From NCBI GenBank assembly GCA_024642725.1, contig JAHEAO010000022.1, forward strand, positions 1-47,677: a stretch of DNA of 47,677 nucleotides. The letters run 5' to 3'. A program made the translations under genes and the position numbers. Positions 35,955 through 44,767 of this stretch are shown here, piece after piece. The stretch comes from Paracoccaceae bacterium. Lineage in GTDB: Bacteria > Pseudomonadota > Alphaproteobacteria > Rhodobacterales > Rhodobacteraceae. Position 1 is the first letter of the stretch; the number at the start of each line of letters is the position of its first letter. The notes under the pieces are model-generated. The model did no database searches. It was not told the DNA's origin and saw nothing but the letters and a program-made list of their open reading frames with translations.

Positions 35955-36642
35955 TCCCTGCCGCTTTCAGCATGGCTTCGGCCCTTGCAATTCCTTCGGG
36001 ACTGCCAACGTCACACCATCCGCCGCGATGCACAATCCCGTAAAGCCTTCGCCGATCCAGCATCAGGTCCCAGACACGGTTCAGTGAAAACGCTGCTTCC
36101 GGGATTTCGGCAAGAAGGCCGGTCGTCAGTATCTGGGCACCGGTGTAGACCAGCCCCGGGCCGCGAGAAAGCCGACCATCCCGGTCCATGTGGAAATCGC
36201 CCGCTCCGACATGGCCCCGCGCATTCTGCCGCTCAACCAGAAGCAAAAGGCCGTCCATCTCATCGGGCCGCCATTCCGCCAGTAGTCTCGAGATCGGATT
36301 CGTCCCGGTCCAGACGGCATCGGAATTCAGCGTGAACACCGGGCCGCCGCGCAGCAGCGGCAAAGCCCGGCGCAGGCCGCCGCCGGTTTCCAGAAGCGCG
36401 TCGGTTTCGTCGGAAATCAATACGCCGCTGTCTTTCAGATGTTCCGTGATCTGATCCGGCAGGTAGTGAACATTCGCAACGACATTGGGAATCGCGGCCC
36501 CTCTCACCAGCGCCAGCGCATGGTCGATCAGCGGCTTGCCCGCCACCTCGATCATCGGTTTGGGGCGGTCATTGGTCAGCGCGCCCATGCGCGTTCCCCT
36601 TCCCGCCGCAAAAAGCATCAGGGAACTGGGGCTGCCGCGCAT
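35947..36642 (-). CDS. murU: Nucleotidyltransferase, probable MurNAc-1-phosphate uridylyltransferase MurU
   Basis: 231 residues with the sugar-nucleotide transferase start LMLFAAGRGTRMGALTNDRPKPMIEVAGKPLIDHAL, and FTLNSDAVWTG supplying the metal-binding Asp. MurU makes UDP-MurNAc from MurNAc-1-phosphate in a peptidoglycan recycling shortcut that bypasses fosfomycin-sensitive MurA. The assignment rests on the sequence type plus direct linkage to an amgK-type kinase, which supplies the sugar-1-phosphate. The ATG at 36642 (MRGSPSSLM) overlaps amgK by 25 bp. A mannose-1-phosphate guanylyltransferase is the alternative. Confidence 0.82.
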   Translation of the reverse strand: MRGSPSSLMLFAAGRGTRMGALTNDRPKPMIEVAGKPLIDHALALVRGAAIPNVVANVHYLPDQITEHLKDSGVLISDETDALLETGGGLRRALPLLRGGPVFTLNSDAVWTGTNPISRLLAEWRPDEMDGLLLLVERQNARGHVGAGDFHMDRDGRLSRGPGLVYTGAQILTTGLLAEIPEAAFSLNRVWDLMLDRRRLYGIVHRGGWCDVGSPEGIARAEAMLKAAGNV

Positions 36643-37637
36643 CGTGCTTTCATCCTGGTCCGGAAATCCTCTGTCGGTTCCGGCAGAGCGGCCAGAACAA
36701 TGTTTCGAAGTGTCGTCAGATCGGGGTGAGACAGATCGGTCGACAAGTGCCGCCAGACCCGGGGCATCATCCCGACGTAATGCGGCTTTCCCTGCAACTG
36801 GCAAAGCCGCGCAAAGACGCCGAGGATACGCAGATTGCGCTGGGCGCCATAGACAGCCACGGCGCGGTTCAGATCTTCCGGATGAGCCCGGCTTGAACGG
36901 ATGTAGCGGTCGGTCAGGGGTTGAATCAGCGCAGGCTTGGGATCACGTCGCGCGTCGCGCAGCAGTGAAGCCAGATCGTAAGCCGGATGGCAAAGAAACG
37001 CGTCCTGAAAGTCCAGAAGCCCGACGCGGCGGATGCCGTTGCGATCCGGCAGCCAGACAAGGTTTTCAGAATGAAAGTCCCGCAAGGCGAGCACTGGCCG
37101 GTCCGTCTCGACCAGGGACAGGAGCCGCGTCAGTTCGTCCGTGAAGGCCTGCTTCGCTTCGATCGGGGCATTGGCGCCGGGAACATACCAGTCGAAAACG
37201 ATGGCCGCAAACTCGGCCATCTGCGTGGGCGTGAAGGTCGAAACGCCTGCTGGCGCCTGCACGGAATGCAGATGCGCAAGAACATCCACTGCCGCGTTGT
37301 AAAGCGGAGCCTCGGTCTTTGGGTCGTCGTGCATCATCCGGGCAAAGATCAGGTCACCGAAATCTTCCAGCAGTAGAAACCCGTGATCCGGATCCTCGGC
37401 GATGCTGCGCGGTGCGCTCAGCCCGTTCCGGTCAAGATGCCGGGCGATCCGCTGGAACGGCTCCAAACTCGCGGCTTCTGTCAGCCCCGTCATCATCAGC
37501 ACGGCGGTCTCGCCGCTGTCTTTTCGCAGCCGGTCATATCGGCGGGCAGAAGCGTCCCCGGCCAGAGAAGTGCGGGACGCCTTCGCCCATCCTGCGCCGG
37601 TCAGAAACTCTGTCAGGTGATCGTGAGTGTCGGCCAT
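36618..37637 (-). CDS. amgK: Aminoglycoside-phosphotransferase-fold kinase, probable MurNAc/GlcNAc kinase AmgK
   Basis: A 339-residue kinase of the APH fold. The catalytic loop is LALRDFHSENLVWL (Asp and Asn) and the metal-binding Asp is in VGLLDFQDAF. AmgK phosphorylates the anomeric hydroxyl of MurNAc and GlcNAc released from cell-wall turnover. It sits one base after tsaE and overlaps murU, the standard recycling pair. The alternative reading as an antibiotic kinase is unlikely because of this context. A likely Gly-rich/nucleotide segment is SLAGDASARRYDRL. Confidence 0.84.
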   Translation of the reverse strand: MADTHDHLTEFLTGAGWAKASRTSLAGDASARRYDRLRKDSGETAVLMMTGLTEAASLEPFQRIARHLDRNGLSAPRSIAEDPDHGFLLLEDFGDLIFARMMHDDPKTEAPLYNAAVDVLAHLHSVQAPAGVSTFTPTQMAEFAAIVFDWYVPGANAPIEAKQAFTDELTRLLSLVETDRPVLALRDFHSENLVWLPDRNGIRRVGLLDFQDAFLCHPAYDLASLLRDARRDPKPALIQPLTDRYIRSSRAHPEDLNRAVAVYGAQRNLRILGVFARLCQLQGKPHYVGMMPRVWRHLSTDLSHPDLTTLRNIVLAALPEPTEDFRTRMKARCAAAPVP

Positions 37638-37638
37638 C

Positions 37639-38142
37639 TCAGGTTCTTTCCGGCGCCAGATGGCCGGCCGATTTCAGGATTGCCTTCCATCTGGGAGACG
37701 CCGACTCCATCGTCAGATCGCGATCGGACTCGCCCGCGCCAGGAGCGAATTTCAGAAACAGCGCGTCGGTCGGCGCGAGGCCGGACAAACGATCGGGCCA
37801 TTCGACAATGCAGATCGCATTTGCGAAAGCCTCGGCCAGGCCGATCTCTTCGATCTCTTGCGGACCGGTCAGCCGGTAGAGATCCGCATGCCAGATCTCG
37901 GCAATACCATCATCGTAAGTCTGGACGATTGTGAATGTCGGGGACGGCACATCCTCGAACAGCCCCGCTGCCGAAAGCCGCGCCTGAATCAGGGCGCGGG
38001 CGAAATGGGTTTTTCCGGCACCGATGGGCCCTTCAAGAAGCAGGGTGTCTCCGGGCTGCAGGGCAGGCGCGATGCTTCTGGCAAGCGCGGCAGTTTCCTC
38101 GGGGGAGGACAGGGTCCGGATCGTGGAAAAGCGCGCTGACAT
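37639..38142 (-). CDS. tsaE: tRNA threonylcarbamoyladenosine biosynthesis ATPase TsaE
   Basis: TsaE is the ATPase of the TsaBDE complex that makes t6A37 in tRNAs reading ANN codons. 167 residues with P-loop LLLEGPIGAGKTHFARAL, PSPTFTIVQTY (conserved switch) and IWHADLYRL, then IVEWPDRLSG, all family marks. Followed after one base by amgK, and preceded by a 40-bp gap after the PAS protein. tsaE, amgK and murU lie together in other alphaproteobacteria as well. Confidence 0.95.
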   Translation of the reverse strand: MSARFSTIRTLSSPEETAALARSIAPALQPGDTLLLEGPIGAGKTHFARALIQARLSAAGLFEDVPSPTFTIVQTYDDGIAEIWHADLYRLTGPQEIEEIGLAEAFANAICIVEWPDRLSGLAPTDALFLKFAPGAGESDRDLTMESASPRWKAILKSAGHLAPERT

Positions 38143-38182: not shown

Positions 38183-39784
38183 TCAGGCAGAAATGGTCCT
38201 GGCGTTGCGCGGGTCATGGCTTCGCCCAGTTGCGCTGTCATCGCTTTGCCGCCGGGTCGGGGCTTGGAACCCGACGAGTGTCGCTCCACCGGCGAGTGGT
38301 GCAAAGCGACACCCAAGCTGCCGTCCGTCGCGCAGCCGAATGTCCGCAGCCCATTCCGCCCGCTCTCCGAAGCTGGCCACGAACTCGCGCAGATCACCCC
38401 AGACGGGGGTCGGGGCGCATTTTTCGCTCCATGCCCTGGTCGCGTCAGCAATGCCGAAGTCGTCGATCGTGGTCGTAGGGTCGAAGCCCCAAAGCCGGGC
38501 ATAGGCCGAATTCGAGAGCGTCAGGGACCCGCTGGGCGAGAAGACCGCGATCGCCTCGTCCAGGCTGTCCAGAACAGCCTGCCCGGTTTCCAACTCTGCG
38601 CGAAACCTGCGCGTCAGCGAGATCTCCGCACTGATATCTTCAAAGAGGAATGCCACTGCGCCATCCGGATGCGGCCGCCCGGTGACCCGATAGGTTTGCC
38701 CCGACGCGAGTGACCATGTTTCCTCGTAGGTGCCGTTCGAGGCTTCGGTTTCCAGCTCGTACATGCGCTGCCGCCACGACTTGTAGTCCTTGGGTTCGGG
38801 GATGATCCGCTTTTCCCGCAGCCGGTCCAGCATCGCCTGCAGGCTGGGGCGGGCGATCAGGAATTCCGGGGGCAGATGGGTAAGATCGGCCAGTGCCGGA
38901 TTGAACAGCGTAAGCTTGCGCGACTTGTCGAAGATCGCCAGCCCCACGGTAAGATGCGCGAAGGTTTTTGTCAGCGTCTGCACGAACTCGCGCAACGACA
39001 CCTCGGCATGAACGGTCTTGTCAGCCGTTACCGCCATGAACAGGCTTTCATCGCCGACTGCGGTCCGGCAGCAATCAAACCAGCGCGGTTCCGGCTCGGT
39101 TGGGACTTTTATGGAAAGCCGCGCCATCTTCGATGCATCGGGGGCGTCCTGAAGCGACGAGACATCAAACAGTCGCGCCGGGGGCCAGCTCGTGCCTTGC
39201 CCGTCTGGCCGGCGTTTCCCCGACAGGTCCAGATAGGCGGCATTGGCCCAAGTGATGACCCCGTCTGGTCGTTGCCGCCACATCAGTACAGGCGCGTGAT
39301 CCGCGGTCAGCCGCAGCGTCTCCAACTCTCGTTGCAGGGCGGCAAGACTGTGGCGGTCAAAGTCAACAGGCAGGCCGGCAGCATCGCTGTCGACAAGGCA
39401 GAGCCGCGCCAACCCGTCACGCCATTCCGCGTCGATCTGCGACGTCCCGTCTTGCGATACCACTCGCACCCGCCCGTCTTCGGCAAGCACTTCGAGATCC
39501 TCGAGCAAACTGGGAAACTTCGGCAGCAGCAGCGACATCAACCGGTTCCATTCGGAACGTCCTTCCGCAGCGCCGGACAGGATCTGTTTTGCAGGCTCGG
39601 TCGCATTCACCAGAAACTCGTCGTCGAAAAGGAAAGCGACGGCGTGATCCGGTTCCATCATGAACCCCGTCGCGCGCCGCCGCGTCCGCGCGTTGATGAA
39701 GGCCAGCAGCCAAAGAGCGGCCAGAGCGACGAGGAATGAGCTGAGTAGAAGTAGACTGACCTGGGTCAGGAAGGCGGCGTTCAT
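38183..39784 (-). CDS. PAS-domain protein, DivL-like but lacking a kinase domain
   Basis: 533 residues: one N-terminal membrane helix (LLLLSSFLVALAALWLLAFIN), then several PAS-like modules, for example VLMWRQRPDGVITWANAAYLDLSG (about 168-191), LTVGLAIFDKSRKLTLFNPALADL and LDSLDEAIAVFSPSGSLTLSNSAYARLWGF. No DHp or ATPase domain follows; the protein stops 40 bp before tsaE. In Caulobacter the tyrosine-type kinase DivL sits at a comparable place next to tsaE and controls CckA-CtrA signalling. Position and PAS layout suggest a DivL relative reduced to a sensor/scaffold. Unproven. A generic PAS sensor is possible. Confidence 0.7.
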   Translation of the reverse strand: MNAAFLTQVSLLLLSSFLVALAALWLLAFINARTRRRATGFMMEPDHAVAFLFDDEFLVNATEPAKQILSGAAEGRSEWNRLMSLLLPKFPSLLEDLEVLAEDGRVRVVSQDGTSQIDAEWRDGLARLCLVDSDAAGLPVDFDRHSLAALQRELETLRLTADHAPVLMWRQRPDGVITWANAAYLDLSGKRRPDGQGTSWPPARLFDVSSLQDAPDASKMARLSIKVPTEPEPRWFDCCRTAVGDESLFMAVTADKTVHAEVSLREFVQTLTKTFAHLTVGLAIFDKSRKLTLFNPALADLTHLPPEFLIARPSLQAMLDRLREKRIIPEPKDYKSWRQRMYELETEASNGTYEETWSLASGQTYRVTGRPHPDGAVAFLFEDISAEISLTRRFRAELETGQAVLDSLDEAIAVFSPSGSLTLSNSAYARLWGFDPTTTIDDFGIADATRAWSEKCAPTPVWGDLREFVASFGERAEWAADIRLRDGRQLGCRFAPLAGGATLVGFQAPTRRQSDDSATGRSHDPRNARTISA

Positions 39785-39857
39785 TCTGAGCGGTCCCCGA
39801 GTCGGAAATTCTGCCCGACCCTGCCCCGTGCTTGGTTAAATGCGGGTTAACCGTTTC

Positions 39858-41282
39858 TCACTCGGTGATCAGCTGGTTTTCGCCAAGACCCTGCCCGGCA
39901 CCGGACCTGTCGGCTGTGATCTTGTCGAGCGGCCAGGTCACTTCGACAATCGCGCCGGTCCGGGTGCGGGGTTCGGCGCCGCTCAGGAACGGATCCCGAC
40001 CGTTGGCAAAACTGAGCTCTGCCCCTGATCGTTCAAGAAGCGTCTTGGCGATGAACAGCCCCAACCCCATGCCCTCGTAACCGGGGCGTTTCTTTTCCTG
40101 TTCATCTGCGCGTCTGCGCCGCACGAAAGGGTCGCCGATCCTGCCGATGACCTGCGGTGGAAACCCCCTGCCGTCGTCGACGATGCGGATAAGGATCGCG
40201 GTGCGAGACCATTGCACGTCGATCCAGACCTGGGTTTCCGAGAAATCCACCGCATTCTGGATCAGGTTGCGCAGCCCGTGCACGATCTCTGGCCGGCGAT
40301 GGATCAGCGGCGGCCGTTGCGATGCGCCTGCCGTGGCTTGGATCTGAATGTCGATCTGCTTGCCGCGGTCCATGTGGGGTTCAGCGGCTTCCCGTATCAC
40401 CTCGGTCAGCGGCACGGTGTGCAGATGCGCGTCATCCTTGCCCGCCCTGCCCATCGATTGCAGGATGTCGCGGCATCGGTTGGCCTGTTCACGGATCAGC
40501 ATCGCGTCTTCCAGAAGCTCAGGACTCGTCGCCAGCTCCTCGATCAACTCGCCGCTGGCCAGTTTGATCGTTGCCAGCGGCGTCCCCAGTTCATGTGCGG
40601 CAGCGGCCACCACGCCTGCAAGATCCGTCAGCTTCTGTTCGCGGGCGAGCGCCATCTGGGTGGCCAGCAGCGCCTCTGACATCTTGTTGATTTCGGATGT
40701 GACTCGGCGCGCATAGGCGCCAAGGAAGATCACGCCGATCACGATGGCAAGCCAGAAGCCAAAGACAAAATCCGTCGGAAGCCGCATGACAAAGCCCATG
40801 TCGGTCCGCAACTGGATATGAAAGAGCATGACCAGAGTGGTCAGAGTGATCGCGAAAGCTCCGACGATCAGCGTCGGCCCGGTGCGAAGCGCGGTGGCAG
40901 AGATCGTGACCGGCGCCAGAATCAGGAGCGCGAAGGGGTTGTTCAGCCCGCCGGTCAGGTAAAGCAGGGCCGAAAGCTGGGCGATGTCGAAGATCAGCAT
41001 CCACATCACTTCGTTTTCCGACAGGCGCTTGTTCTCGGGGTAAACGAATATGGCGATCAGGTTGGCGATCACCGAAGTGCCGATCGCTACGAAGCAGAGC
41101 CCGAGATTGATGTTCAGGTCGAACCAGCGCCGCGCCACGAGGATTGCCGCCAGCTGTCCGAGGATGGCGATCCAGCGCAAGACGATCAGCGTCCGCAGGC
41201 GCACCCAGTTGCTGCGCCGTTCTTCAGTCAGGAGGTCGATCGAAGGCGTAGCCATCGCGGGTGGTGCACCGGGTTGCGTCAA
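39858..41282 (-). CDS. regB: Redox-responsive sensor histidine kinase RegB (PrrB)
   Basis: The global redox sensor of Rhodobacterales. 474 residues with six hydrophobic N-terminal helices, the conserved ubiquinone-sensing loop segment GGLNNPFALL, the H-box AAAHELGTPLATIKL with the phosphorylated His, a conserved Cys in NRCRDIL, N-box NLIQNAVDFSE and G boxes VDDGRGFP and GMGLGLFIAK. It senses quinone/oxidase redox state and phosphorylates RegA, controlling respiration and, in phototrophs, photosynthesis genes. Divergent from senC-regA across 79 bp, the classical arrangement. The PAS protein follows 73 bp downstream. Confidence 0.96.
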   Translation of the reverse strand: MTQPGAPPAMATPSIDLLTEERRSNWVRLRTLIVLRWIAILGQLAAILVARRWFDLNINLGLCFVAIGTSVIANLIAIFVYPENKRLSENEVMWMLIFDIAQLSALLYLTGGLNNPFALLILAPVTISATALRTGPTLIVGAFAITLTTLVMLFHIQLRTDMGFVMRLPTDFVFGFWLAIVIGVIFLGAYARRVTSEINKMSEALLATQMALAREQKLTDLAGVVAAAAHELGTPLATIKLASGELIEELATSPELLEDAMLIREQANRCRDILQSMGRAGKDDAHLHTVPLTEVIREAAEPHMDRGKQIDIQIQATAGASQRPPLIHRRPEIVHGLRNLIQNAVDFSETQVWIDVQWSRTAILIRIVDDGRGFPPQVIGRIGDPFVRRRRADEQEKKRPGYEGMGLGLFIAKTLLERSGAELSFANGRDPFLSGAEPRTRTGAIVEVTWPLDKITADRSGAGQGLGENQLITE

Positions 41283-41361: not shown

Positions 41362-42000
41362 ATGGCGAAAACACAAAGCTATGCGGTAGCGGCGGCAGTT
41401 GCCGTGGTCGGTCTGCTAGGCGCCACGATGTACTACGCAACCCGGCCTTCGGCGGACGATCCCTTTGCACCCTGCCGCGATTCGGTGATCGCGGGCGGCG
41501 CCTCCAGCATCGGCGGGCCATTCACGCTGGTCGATGAGACCGGCAAAACAGTCACTGACAAGGACGTTTTCACCAAACCGTCGCTGGTCTATTTCGGCTA
41601 TACCTTCTGCCCGGATGTCTGCCCCGCGGACACGTCCCGCAACGCCGAGGCAATCGATATCATCGCGGAAATGGGTTATGATGTGCAGCCTGTGTTCATC
41701 TCGATCGACCCGGAACGGGACACGCCGGAAGTCGTGGCCGATTTCACCGACTATCTGCATGAAGACATGCTGGGCCTGACTGGAACGCCAGAGCAGGTCA
41801 AGGCCGCGTCGCAGGCCTACAAGACCTATTTTCGCAAGCAGGACGGTGATCCGGAATACTATCTCGTGGATCACTCGACCTTCAGCTACCTCGTCTTCCC
41901 GGACACCGGATTCGTCGAATTTTTCAAACGCGACCTGACCGCGGACGAATTGGCAAATAAAATGGCCTGTTATCTCGACATCGGCAGCTACGGAAATTGA
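41362..42000 (+). CDS. senC: SCO1/SenC copper chaperone protein
   Basis: A 212-residue membrane-anchored protein: one N-terminal helix (YAVAAAVAVVGLLGATMYY) then a thioredoxin-like periplasmic domain with the copper site FGYTFCPDVCPADT (CxxxC) and the distal His in VDHSTFSYLVF. SCO/SenC (PrrC) proteins deliver copper to the CuA or CuB site of cytochrome oxidase and influence RegB signalling in Rhodobacter. First gene of senC-regA; 51 bp to regA. Confidence 0.95.
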   Translation: MAKTQSYAVAAAVAVVGLLGATMYYATRPSADDPFAPCRDSVIAGGASSIGGPFTLVDETGKTVTDKDVFTKPSLVYFGYTFCPDVCPADTSRNAEAIDIIAEMGYDVQPVFISIDPERDTPEVVADFTDYLHEDMLGLTGTPEQVKAASQAYKTYFRKQDGDPEYYLVDHSTFSYLVFPDTGFVEFFKRDLTADELANKMACYLDIGSYGN

Positions 42001-42051
42001 CCCCGGCACACGCCCGCAATAATGTTGCGCAGGTTTTGTGAAGGAAATCCG

Positions 42052-42606
42052 ATGTCAGAGGCTGACCCGCTGGAGCTTGGCGACGACAAATCGCTGCTGC
42101 TTGTCGATGATGACGAAGCGTTCCTGCGTCGCCTTGCGCGAGCGATGGAAAAGCGCGGATTCGAACCTGAGATGGCAGGATCTGTTGCCGCCGGAAAAGC
42201 CTTCGCGACAGCCCGCCCGCCCGCCTATGCCGTCGTTGACTTGCGGCTGGAGGATGGCAACGGGCTCGATGTTGTAGAGACAATACGCGAGCGACGCCCG
42301 GACAGCCGGATCGTTGTGCTGACGGGCTACGGGGCGATTGCAACGGCCGTTGCCGCCGTCAAGATCGGAGCGACCGACTACTTGTCCAAGCCCGCCGACG
42401 CAAACGACATTACGGCAGCGCTTCTGGCTGACGGTTCCGCGCTGCCGCCGCCGCCAGAAAACCCGATGTCAGCCGACCGCGTGCGTTGGGAACATATTCA
42501 GCGGGTCTACGAACTCTGCGACAGGAACGTCAGCGAAACGGCGCGCCGACTGAACATGCATCGGCGGACGCTGCAGCGGATTCTTGCGAAACGCAGCCCG
42601 CGCTGA
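42052..42606 (+). CDS. regA: Response regulator RegA (PrrA)
   Basis: 184 residues, the exact size of the RegA/PrrA family. Receiver domain with acidic pocket LLVDDDEAFLRR, phospho-acceptor Asp in AVVDLRLEDGNGLD, and Lys in DYLSKPAD. A proline linker (PPPPENP) leads to a Fis-type helix-turn-helix, NVSETARRLNMHRRTLQRIL, that is nearly invariant in the family. The ATG at 42052 has AAGGA seven bases upstream; a frame opening at 42022 has no support. The usual next gene hvrA is missing: a GNAT gene converges 6 bp downstream. Confidence 0.97.
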   Translation: MSEADPLELGDDKSLLLVDDDEAFLRRLARAMEKRGFEPEMAGSVAAGKAFATARPPAYAVVDLRLEDGNGLDVVETIRERRPDSRIVVLTGYGAIATAVAAVKIGATDYLSKPADANDITAALLADGSALPPPPENPMSADRVRWEHIQRVYELCDRNVSETARRLNMHRRTLQRILAKRSPR

Positions 42607-42612
42607 GACGCA

Positions 42613-43113
42613 TCAAGGCAGATCGTAGCGCTTTCTGATGCGGTCCACTTTCGTGCCGTCGCTCAATGGTACATTGATCAGCCGGTCATAGTCGGTGAAT
42701 CCGATACGCGAATAGTAACGCAATCCGCCGACGTTATCGGCGCGTATCGTCGCATCGATGGTCCTGACACCGGCCCGGTCCGCCGCCGCTTTTGTCGCCT
42801 CGAACAAGGCTTTGCCGATACCTCTCCCCGTCAGGCCGACCTTCGCGAATGTCGCGATGATTGCCCAGCCCTGCGCAAACCGGTCGCCATCCTCGCTCGG
42901 CCAGGCCAGAGACTGGAAACCGACGAGTTCCCCGTCTCGCTCGGCGACGGTGCAGGACACCCGTTCGTCCGGCTGGATGTAGTGATGCAGCATTCGGTCA
43001 GGCGTGAACGGGCGTTGGTGCGCCGTGGTGCCCCCGGCCGCGATCACCGCATTCAGAAGCGCCGCAAGTCCTGATGCGTCCCCGGCTTCGGCCGGACGAG
43101 TTGTGAGCGTCAT
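42613..43113 (-). CDS. GNAT-family N-acetyltransferase
   Basis: 166 residues with acetyl-CoA-binding motif A LTGRGIGKALFEATKAAAD (the R/Q-x-x-G-x-G/A loop as GRGIGKA) and the motif B tail NVGGLRYYSRIGFTDY. Substrate unknown; related proteins acetylate phosphinothricin or methionine sulfoximine, or protein amines. The sequence is clearly related to the GNAT at 44285-44767 (shared LLNA...GGTTA, ALFEATKAA, DNxGGL, YYxxxGF). Downstream of a LysR gene by 17 bp in the same direction, so likely co-transcribed. Confidence 0.88.
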   Translation of the reverse strand: MTLTTRPAEAGDASGLAALLNAVIAAGGTTAHQRPFTPDRMLHHYIQPDERVSCTVAERDGELVGFQSLAWPSEDGDRFAQGWAIIATFAKVGLTGRGIGKALFEATKAAADRAGVRTIDATIRADNVGGLRYYSRIGFTDYDRLINVPLSDGTKVDRIRKRYDLP

Positions 43114-43130
43114 GCTGGGGCCCCGGTTGG

Positions 43131-43997
43131 TCAGACCACCGACTTTAGCCATCGCATGAACAGGCGCAAGTTGGCCTTCACCGGTCCGGGACGGGTCACA
43201 AGGTAGTAACCCAGCCCGCTGACGGGTGCACAATGAACCGACCGCAAACGGCCGGTGGCAAGATCATCCGCGACCAGCGTGCCCAGCTCGACATGCAGCC
43301 CGTATCCCTGTCGCGCAGCAGACAAGGCAAGTTCTTCGGTTGGCACCATGGTCGTGCGTATCCGAGAGACATCAAGTCCGATCCGGCTCATGTAGGCCAA
43401 CTGCTCGGGCCAGTCTTCCTCGATCACCCAGGGCATTGCCGCCAGCTCCTCCAGCGAGAAGTTTTCCCGGCCATCAAGCAGGTTTGGAGCTGCGACGACG
43501 CAGAAATCGGCGGGCGTCAGCATCTCGGCCTGAAGGTTGGGCCATTTGCCGTCGCCATAGCGAATCGCGAGGTCCATACCGTCCCGCGCCAGATCGACAA
43601 TGTGCCGGTCGGGATGCAGCGTCAGCGGAACATCGGCGTGTTTTGCCCAGAAATCACCCAGCCGCGGCATGAGCCATTGTGCCGCGAAACTGGGGGTAAG
43701 CGTCACGGCAAGCGGCCGCCCCGGGTCGTCACTGATCGCGCGCATCGCATCTGCGATCTGGCCGAAAGCCTGCCCCAGAGGTTGCGCCAGACGTCGCCCG
43801 TCTTCGGTCAGCGCCATGCCTCGGCCTTCGCGACGCATCAGCGCCCGCCCGACATGTTCTTCGAGCTTGCGAAGGTGCTGGGCGATGGCGGCATGGGTCA
43901 CGTTCAACTCGCGTGCCGCCTCGCTCAGCGACCCGGTTCTTGCCGCAGCCTCAAACGCCCGCAACGCCGATAGCGATGGTATCTGACGCCAATCCAT
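43131..43997 (-). CDS. LysR-family transcriptional regulator (GcvA-like)
   Basis: 288 residues. N-terminal winged helix SLSALRAFEAAARTGSLSEAARELNVTHAAIAQHLRKLEEHVGRAL, then the effector-binding domain with RYGDGKWPNL and a typical Asp/Ser ligand region. The effector is unknown. GcvA-type regulators respond to amino acids. It is divergent from the 53-residue gene at 44093, with a TTACAT/ATGTAA inverted repeat between them, and is followed in the same direction by a GNAT gene. LysR regulators often control a divergent neighbour. Confidence 0.9.
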   Translation of the reverse strand: MDWRQIPSLSALRAFEAAARTGSLSEAARELNVTHAAIAQHLRKLEEHVGRALMRREGRGMALTEDGRRLAQPLGQAFGQIADAMRAISDDPGRPLAVTLTPSFAAQWLMPRLGDFWAKHADVPLTLHPDRHIVDLARDGMDLAIRYGDGKWPNLQAEMLTPADFCVVAAPNLLDGRENFSLEELAAMPWVIEEDWPEQLAYMSRIGLDVSRIRTTMVPTEELALSAARQGYGLHVELGTLVADDLATGRLRSVHCAPVSGLGYYLVTRPGPVKANLRLFMRWLKSVV

Positions 43998-44284: not shown

Positions 44285-44767
44285 CTAGTCCAGTCGGTAT
44301 CGTTTCCAGACCTTGTCGACGCGGCGGCCATCATCCAGCTTTTCATTCGGCAGGTGGAGAATGGTCTCAAAGCCCCGGCTTTGGTAGTATGCCAGCCCAC
44401 CAGAGTTGTCGGAACGGATAATGGCATCGATGCAGCGATACCCCTGTGCACGCACCGCTGCCTTCGTCGCCTCAAACAGCGCCGAACCGATCCCCAGCCC
44501 GGTTTCCCCCAACTGCACGTAGGAAGCGATATCAACGGCATCGGGCGGCAAATCCGGATGCGGTTCCGTCCATTGGAAGCCCTTTACCTGGCCGTTGTCA
44601 TCTTCGGCGAGATGCCAGATCGCATTCTCCCGGCCCATCCACTCGGCAAGCGCTTTCCCCGACACCGGAGTGACCATCGCCGTCGTTCCGCCCTTGGCGA
44701 TTATCGCATTCAGAAGATCCGACAATGCATTTGCATCAAGCGGTCCGGCCCGCCGGATATGGATCAC
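44285..44767 (-). CDS. GNAT-family N-acetyltransferase (second copy)
   Basis: 160 residues: GETGLGIGSALFEATKAAVRAQG contains acetyl-CoA motif A, and SDNSGGLAYYQSRGFETI motif B. Related to the GNAT at 42613-43113 and of the same length class. Substrate unknown. The ATG at 44767 overlaps the stop of the HD gene (44764), so the HD phosphohydrolase and this acetyltransferase form a leftward pair. It converges on the small gene. Confidence 0.88.
   Translation of the reverse strand: MIHIRRAGPLDANALSDLLNAIIAKGGTTAMVTPVSGKALAEWMGRENAIWHLAEDDNGQVKGFQWTEPHPDLPPDAVDIASYVQLGETGLGIGSALFEATKAAVRAQGYRCIDAIIRSDNSGGLAYYQSRGFETILHLPNEKLDDGRRVDKVWKRYRLD

Follow-up and report, generated by a model that had tools for sequence, protein, structure and literature searches.

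Introduction

Between regB, which encodes a redox sensor kinase, and tsaE lies a gene for a PAS protein without a kinase domain. Its position raises the question of whether it encodes a form of DivL and, if so, how such a protein would act on the CtrA phosphorelay. In Caulobacter, the pseudokinase part of DivL is reported to bind DivK-P, while its PAS domains set specificity (PMC4211667). DivL of a Rhodobacterales cluster has been described as kinase-less and CtrA-controlled (Brilli 2010, PMC2877005), and a series leading from DivK loss through degenerate long DivL to short DivL has been outlined (PMC9430884). Here, we examined the gene and its surroundings in a stretch of 47,677 nucleotides (hereafter the window), the genome to which the window belongs, further genomes of its family, and genomes of the class outside that family.

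Results

Architecture of the PAS protein

The reading frame begins with an ATG at 39784 and its stop codon ends at 38183 on the minus strand, giving a protein of 533 aa with the following predicted parts.

38183..39784, minus strand: short divL gene, 533 aa, N-terminal helix and tandem PAS, without a kinase domain
39677..39778, minus strand: N-terminal (membrane) helix, residues 3-36, from the AlphaFold2 model and a hydrophobic run seen by eye
39389..39640, minus strand: PAS-like unit 1, residues about 49-132, from the model only
39026..39292, minus strand: PAS unit 2, residues about 165-253, from Pfam PAS_8 (157-194) and PAS_4 (172-204) and the model
38636..38956, minus strand: PAS unit 3, residues about 277-383, from Pfam PAS_7 (276-388) and the model
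38264..38560, minus strand: PAS unit 4, residues about 409-507, from the model

PAS_7, PAS_8, PAS, and PAS_4 all exceeded their Pfam cut-offs, with PAS_7 matching in two stretches, one of them residues 276-388. A Pfam search at E<=1 found neither HisKA nor HATPase_c, and the protein thus lacks a DHp-CA pseudokinase and its H-box Tyr. The AlphaFold2 model, built from an input of 10 family sequences, had a mean pLDDT of 71 and a pTM of 0.32, the latter indicating low confidence for the arrangement of the domains. In our reading of its strands and helices, the model contains four PAS-like units linked by helices. Unit 3 falls where the family alignment is best conserved, and the last PAS unit is followed by a 26-residue tail that is modelled with low confidence. 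A first-pass annotation of this DNA had described a helix plus PAS repeats, without an H-box or ATPase, ending 40 bp before tsaE; Pfam and the structure prediction that it had suggested both bear this out.

The locus and its conservation

On the same strand, regB precedes divL by 73 nt and tsaE follows it after 40 nt, the latter serving as a locus marker for DivL in the broad sense. The neighbors are as follows.

36618..37637, minus strand: amgK-like sugar kinase gene, next downstream, locus marker; Pfam APH; NCBIfam AmgK 235 bits, below the cut-off of 500
37639..38142, minus strand: tsaE, downstream neighbor, locus marker; Pfam TsaE and NCBIfam TIGR00150 over cut-off
39858..41282, minus strand: regB, redox sensor kinase gene, upstream neighbor; NCBIfam NF045988 773 bits, cut-off 570
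41362..42000, plus strand: senC, locus marker, divergent from regB; Pfam SCO1-SenC
42022..42606, plus strand: regA, locus marker; NCBIfam NF033791 320 bits, cut-off 250

A DivL match at E<=1e-5 was found in 136 of 149 family genomes. Synteny, which had been proposed as a check, proved to be conserved: of the 136 loci, that of the window included, 128 have a regB match upstream, oriented like divL, and 122 a tsaE match downstream. The neighbor gave no match in eight and 14 loci, respectively, and was reversed in none; some of the missing neighbors lie at contig or stretch ends, which these counts do not separate. Among the best 80 loci, which come from Marinosulfonomonas, Celeribacter, Pacificibacter, Tropicimonas, Rhodobacter, and others and are in many cases closely related, regB was upstream in 79 and tsaE downstream in 67. 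The full set of regA, senC, regB, divL, tsaE, and amgK was present in 9 of 20 longer stretches (6-11.5 kb), the rest being without at least one of the six.

The 13 family genomes without a DivL match at E<=1e-5 were G014, G029, G033, G036, G059, G068, G069, G078, G090, G096, G102, G109, and G136; their size is small (1.9-2.7 Mb) in seven cases, and completeness is below 85% in four. Six frames (L088, L127, L139, L173, L182, and L183) contain a stop or a frame shift, lie in two pieces, or run on into tsaE, and represent either assembly errors or decaying genes. Six others (L097, L094, L096, L179, L180, and L181) have 339-421 aa and align with the protein encoded in the window from residue 161-269 onward, and their N-terminal side appears to be either shortened or diverged. 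Elsewhere in the window, two similar small proteins, acetyltransferase-like by eye, are encoded on the minus strand at 42613-43233 and 44285-44767, the former adjoining a LysR-like gene (43131-43997, also assigned by eye).

Long forms at the same locus link the short protein to DivL

Neither the Pfam and NCBIfam matches of the short protein nor phmmer pointed to DivL by name: the former included no DivL-named family and the latter returned no DivL chain. The same locus, however, contains graded frames from short to long. Ten family genomes (L078-L087) have a long frame there, with 163-285 residues after the last PAS; Pfam HisKA was matched in six of these ten, and the HATPase cut-off was reached by none. 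A wider family search added six more (L372, L375, L376, L378, L379, and L392), and all 16 long family frames have the locus and the PAS region in common with the window gene. The residue at the H-box varies among them, being His in L081, L082, L083, and L372, Thr in L080, and Tyr in L079 only. When L079 was compared with PDB chains, other histidine kinases matched best and DivL (4q20) ranked fifth.

Outside the family, we took 60 tsaE loci from 191 class genomes with a tsaE match. In twelve of these loci, the frame immediately before tsaE is long and DivL-like; a profile of family proteins built without L078-L087 recognized all 12 at E values of 1e-42 to 1e-59, whereas the upstream frames of the other 48 gave no profile match at E<=1e-3. 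At the H-box, nine of the 12 have Tyr, two Phe, and one His. For both of the two that were compared with the PDB, the best match was 4q20, 'Sensor protein DivL', which we take to be Caulobacter DivL. As judged from the alignments of the long forms, 4q20 holds the kinase part only, and for this reason the short protein is not expected to match it.

In a PAS-region tree rooted on the 12 class rows and containing DivL rows only, the outer branches of the family are long forms, and most short forms are nested inside. Together with the profile matches, this tree argues that the PAS region is homologous to that of Tyr-box DivL. By locus and sequence, the window gene is a short, kinase-less DivL of Rhodobacterales, orthologous to long DivL. 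The first-pass annotation's view of a DivL that keeps only the sensory part thus gains support from the HMM comparison it had called for, from the series of short to long forms at one locus, and from the 4q20 matches of the long forms.

Partners and DivL copies in the same genome

A full-length DivL elsewhere in the genome had been named as an observation that would speak against this identity. A protein search at E<=10 gave a single DivL match, and the H-box pattern was recognized in six of the genome's 18 HATPase frames, each with His, the other 12 falling outside the pattern; a second full-length DivL was rejected on these grounds. By score, the hybrid kinases L033 and L031 come closest to long DivL in this genome, with identities mostly of 20-32%, and L031 shows a His-box. 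A further divL homolog, bearing kinase and receiver domains, has been attributed to D. shibae (PMC6473078); that hybrid kinases are present in this genome as well counts against the reading preferred below.

The genome encodes the phosphorelay through which a short DivL would work. CtrA exceeded its NCBIfam cut-off, ChpT exceeded the Pfam cut-off while remaining under both NCBIfam ChpT cut-offs, and one hybrid kinase had two CckA models as its best families, both under cut-off, making it a CckA candidate.

For DivK, a direct search with the Caulobacter protein gave a best match of 37% identity, whereas all 12 class genomes with long DivL have DivK at 60-80% identity. Since the assembly is 98.95% complete, the absence of DivK is likely but not certain. 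The single-domain response regulators L065 and L061 were rejected as DivK because DivK ranks below PleD or PhoP-type chains among their matches. Contig C145 of this genome (G000) carries a two-component cluster (L033, L056, and L065) with a hybrid kinase that has two receivers; its single-domain response regulator is the genome's sole DivK match, at 37%. The combination found here, a DivL without a kinase domain and a genome in which DivK was not found by direct search, is that of the Rhodobacterales short DivL.

A conserved CtrA box precedes divL

The regB-divL gap contains GGTTAACCCGCATTTAACC on the divL strand, an exact match to the predicted CtrA box.

39836..39850, minus strand: CtrA box TTAA-N7-TTAA, 52-66 nt before the divL start codon, exact match

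This is the one exact TTAA-N7-TTAA in the whole window, where 0.03 would be expected. Among 118 family loci with regB and a gap of 20-260 nt (18 of the 136 fall outside this definition), scanned from 150 nt before the start and with long forms included, the exact box was found in 101 and a box with one mismatch in nine more. Control stretches gave no exact box (0/106 before tsaE and 0/117 inside regB), and base shuffles gave one in 0.1% of 2360. A second count, from 200 nt before to 60 nt inside divL and with the ten long forms set apart, found the exact box in 102 of 121 loci, leaving 19 without; the cut or broken frames L183, L091, L171, and L182 were left out of this count and of the trees. 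All 79 regB-bearing loci of the best 80 contain a CtrA box in the interval that runs from the regB match to 150 nt beyond the first divL codon in the match.

Across the genome, TTAA-N7-TTAAC is not enriched: it gave 10 rows, and its reversed control gave 22. The argument from the box consequently rests on its place and conservation rather than on number. These results suggest that the conserved box gives divL its own CtrA-driven promoter. L375 and L378, long forms that the tree does not pair as sisters, have an identical 15-base box, TTAAACAATATTTAA, before divL.

A possible order of DivK loss, box gain, and truncation

We searched for DivK in 22 family genomes, 16 with long and six with short frames, including that of the window. 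The genomes of L078, L079, L080, and L392, which form the outermost branches, have DivK at 71-79% identity; those of L081 and L083 have a relative at 45-47%, and the other 16 of the 22 have none above 39% (E<=1e-20). The CtrA box was absent from all 11 class loci scanned, two of which had less than 320 nt upstream and from which the cut locus L234 was left out. Of the 16 long family frames, seven carry it (L084-L087, L375, L378, and L379) and nine do not.

In a smaller tree of 49 rows, from which L219, L247, and L234 were left out and for which 24 short rows were picked by hand, one clade (30 rows, support 100/99) contains every one of the 24 short rows, 17 of them with the exact box, together with six of the seven long frames that are boxed. 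Among the 19 rows outside this clade, L375 alone has the box. When the long frames were sorted after the fact by whether the H-box motif was kept or lost, the box was found in 0/8 and 7/8, respectively (p 0.0014 for a post hoc table of related rows); L078 and L375 can be placed either way, and moving L375 changes the counts to 1/9 and 6/7.

The fewest length changes were three on the large tree, counted without L088, L127, and L139, whose frames run into tsaE or are shifted, and four on the 49-row tree, two of which are forced by well-supported branches. Bootstrap trees of the 49 rows, from a bootstrap that had not converged, required three to five. One forced change depends on L377, a protein of 593 aa in which about 77 residues still follow the PAS region, and for this reason two truncations are likely but not proven.

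These observations can be arranged into an order to which we give roughly even odds: DivK was lost, the CtrA box was gained, and the pseudokinase was then eroded and cut off, perhaps more than once, such that feedback would have replaced the DivK-P input before the docking domain was lost. Against a simple order of this kind stand the 19 of 121 short loci that lack the box, L375, boxed although outside the main clade, and L392, which has neither the H-box motif nor the box. The order was read after the fact from a gene tree rather than a species tree, with unsure placement of long branches. A placing of the box within the series of DivK and DivL losses was not met in the accessible parts of the literature searched.

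Discussion

Taken together, we favor the reading that the window gene is a short Rhodobacterales DivL that raises the kinase state of CckA within a CtrA positive feedback loop, with a probability of about 0.9. The membrane-anchored PAS tandem would contact the hybrid kinase CckA and push it towards its kinase state, as papers on relatives suggest; CckA would then phosphorylate CtrA via ChpT, and CtrA-P would switch divL on, closing a loop that may stand in for the DivK input of Caulobacter. Contact between the PAS tandem and CckA is the most likely mode of action in light of the reports on R. capsulatus and Caulobacter, and the earlier proposal that CtrA control works through protein contact alone is, by the same analogy, plausible.

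In the accessible parts of those reports, R. capsulatus DivL is stated to stimulate the kinase activity of CckA and thereby promote phosphorylation of CtrA (PMC9143464 and PMC9638019, citing Westbye 2018), and CtrA-P to raise DivL (PMC9638019, citing Westbye 2018). In D. shibae, a CtrA site is predicted before divL, and the divL transcript is lower in phosphorelay mutants (PMC4046655); in P. inhibens, divL1 falls in ctrA and cckA mutants (PMC12363192). The short DivL proteins of R. capsulatus (rcc00042) and D. shibae (Dshi_3433) are described in the same terms as that of the window, with PAS domains only, DivK absent, and divL under CtrA control (PMC2877005, PMC9430884, PMC4046655, and PMC6473078), and a comparison at the level of these partial descriptions found no feature that sets the window gene apart. 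Short, kinase-less DivL is thus already known from Rhodobacterales, and the window gene is ordinary for its group. Caulobacter DivL resembles it in the tandem PAS, and the 12 long forms before tsaE among the 60 outside-family loci are of the Caulobacter type. According to the accessible text of PMC4211667, the Caulobacter protein differs in that DivK-P binds to its DHp-CA pseudokinase, which contains Tyr550, whereas the window DivL has no pseudokinase and DivK was not found in its genome. Oceanicella and Albimonas, described in part of PMC9430884 as early Rhodobacterales, keep a degenerate kinase part, as do the 16 long family frames and unlike the window protein.

The position of divL directly behind regB, which recurs across most of the family loci, had led to the proposal of a redox link. 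One such reading has divL transcribed through from regB, with its PAS units relaying redox or oxygen signals between DivL and RegB in either direction. The top Foldseek ranks of the DivL model are redox- and oxygen-responsive PAS proteins (PpsR, DosP, and FixL), but PAS folds match each other whatever their function, and the TM-scores (query length) were about 0.12-0.32 among the 50 rows listed. For R. capsulatus, transcripts of the CtrA regulon are reported to fall when RegA is lost, and ChIP-seq together with predictions suggests FnrL binding beside divL; the accessible text of the same article, however, names chpT as the only phosphorelay gene under RegA regulation (PMC7232146). The conserved CtrA box within the gap suggests that divL has a CtrA-driven promoter of its own, which disfavors a regB-divL redox operon, and this operon was rejected as the leading reading. 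Moreover, no regB match was found within 0-1.3 kb upstream of the 12 long DivL genes outside the family. The redox proposal did not find support in these data, and a role for DivL as an accessory of RegB is improbable; a redox link by other routes, such as the RegA and FnrL effects described for R. capsulatus, may nevertheless exist.

It is more doubtful still that the gene is a functionless, decaying remnant. Its kinase part has indeed been lost, and stops or breaks interrupt the frame in a few family genomes, but most family genomes have a single open frame, the promoter box is conserved, and the protein is strongly conserved, with a mean column identity of 57% among ten close relatives; a role in CtrA phosphorylation is, moreover, stated for R. 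capsulatus DivL in the available part of PMC9143464. That the protein is a PAS protein unrelated to DivL, standing before tsaE by chance, would agree with the lack of any DivL-named match for the short form, but is scarcely credible given the graded series of frames at one locus and the profile matches to Tyr-box DivL. The reading as a short DivL acting on CckA within a CtrA feedback loop therefore remains the one we prefer.

DivL is a known regulator of CtrA, and hence of gene transfer agents, in Rhodobacterales. The intermediate forms are living proteins that could show by which part DivL drives CckA without a DivK-binding pseudokinase, a question that is hard to address in Caulobacter, where the CckA-driving part and the DivK-binding pseudokinase occur together.
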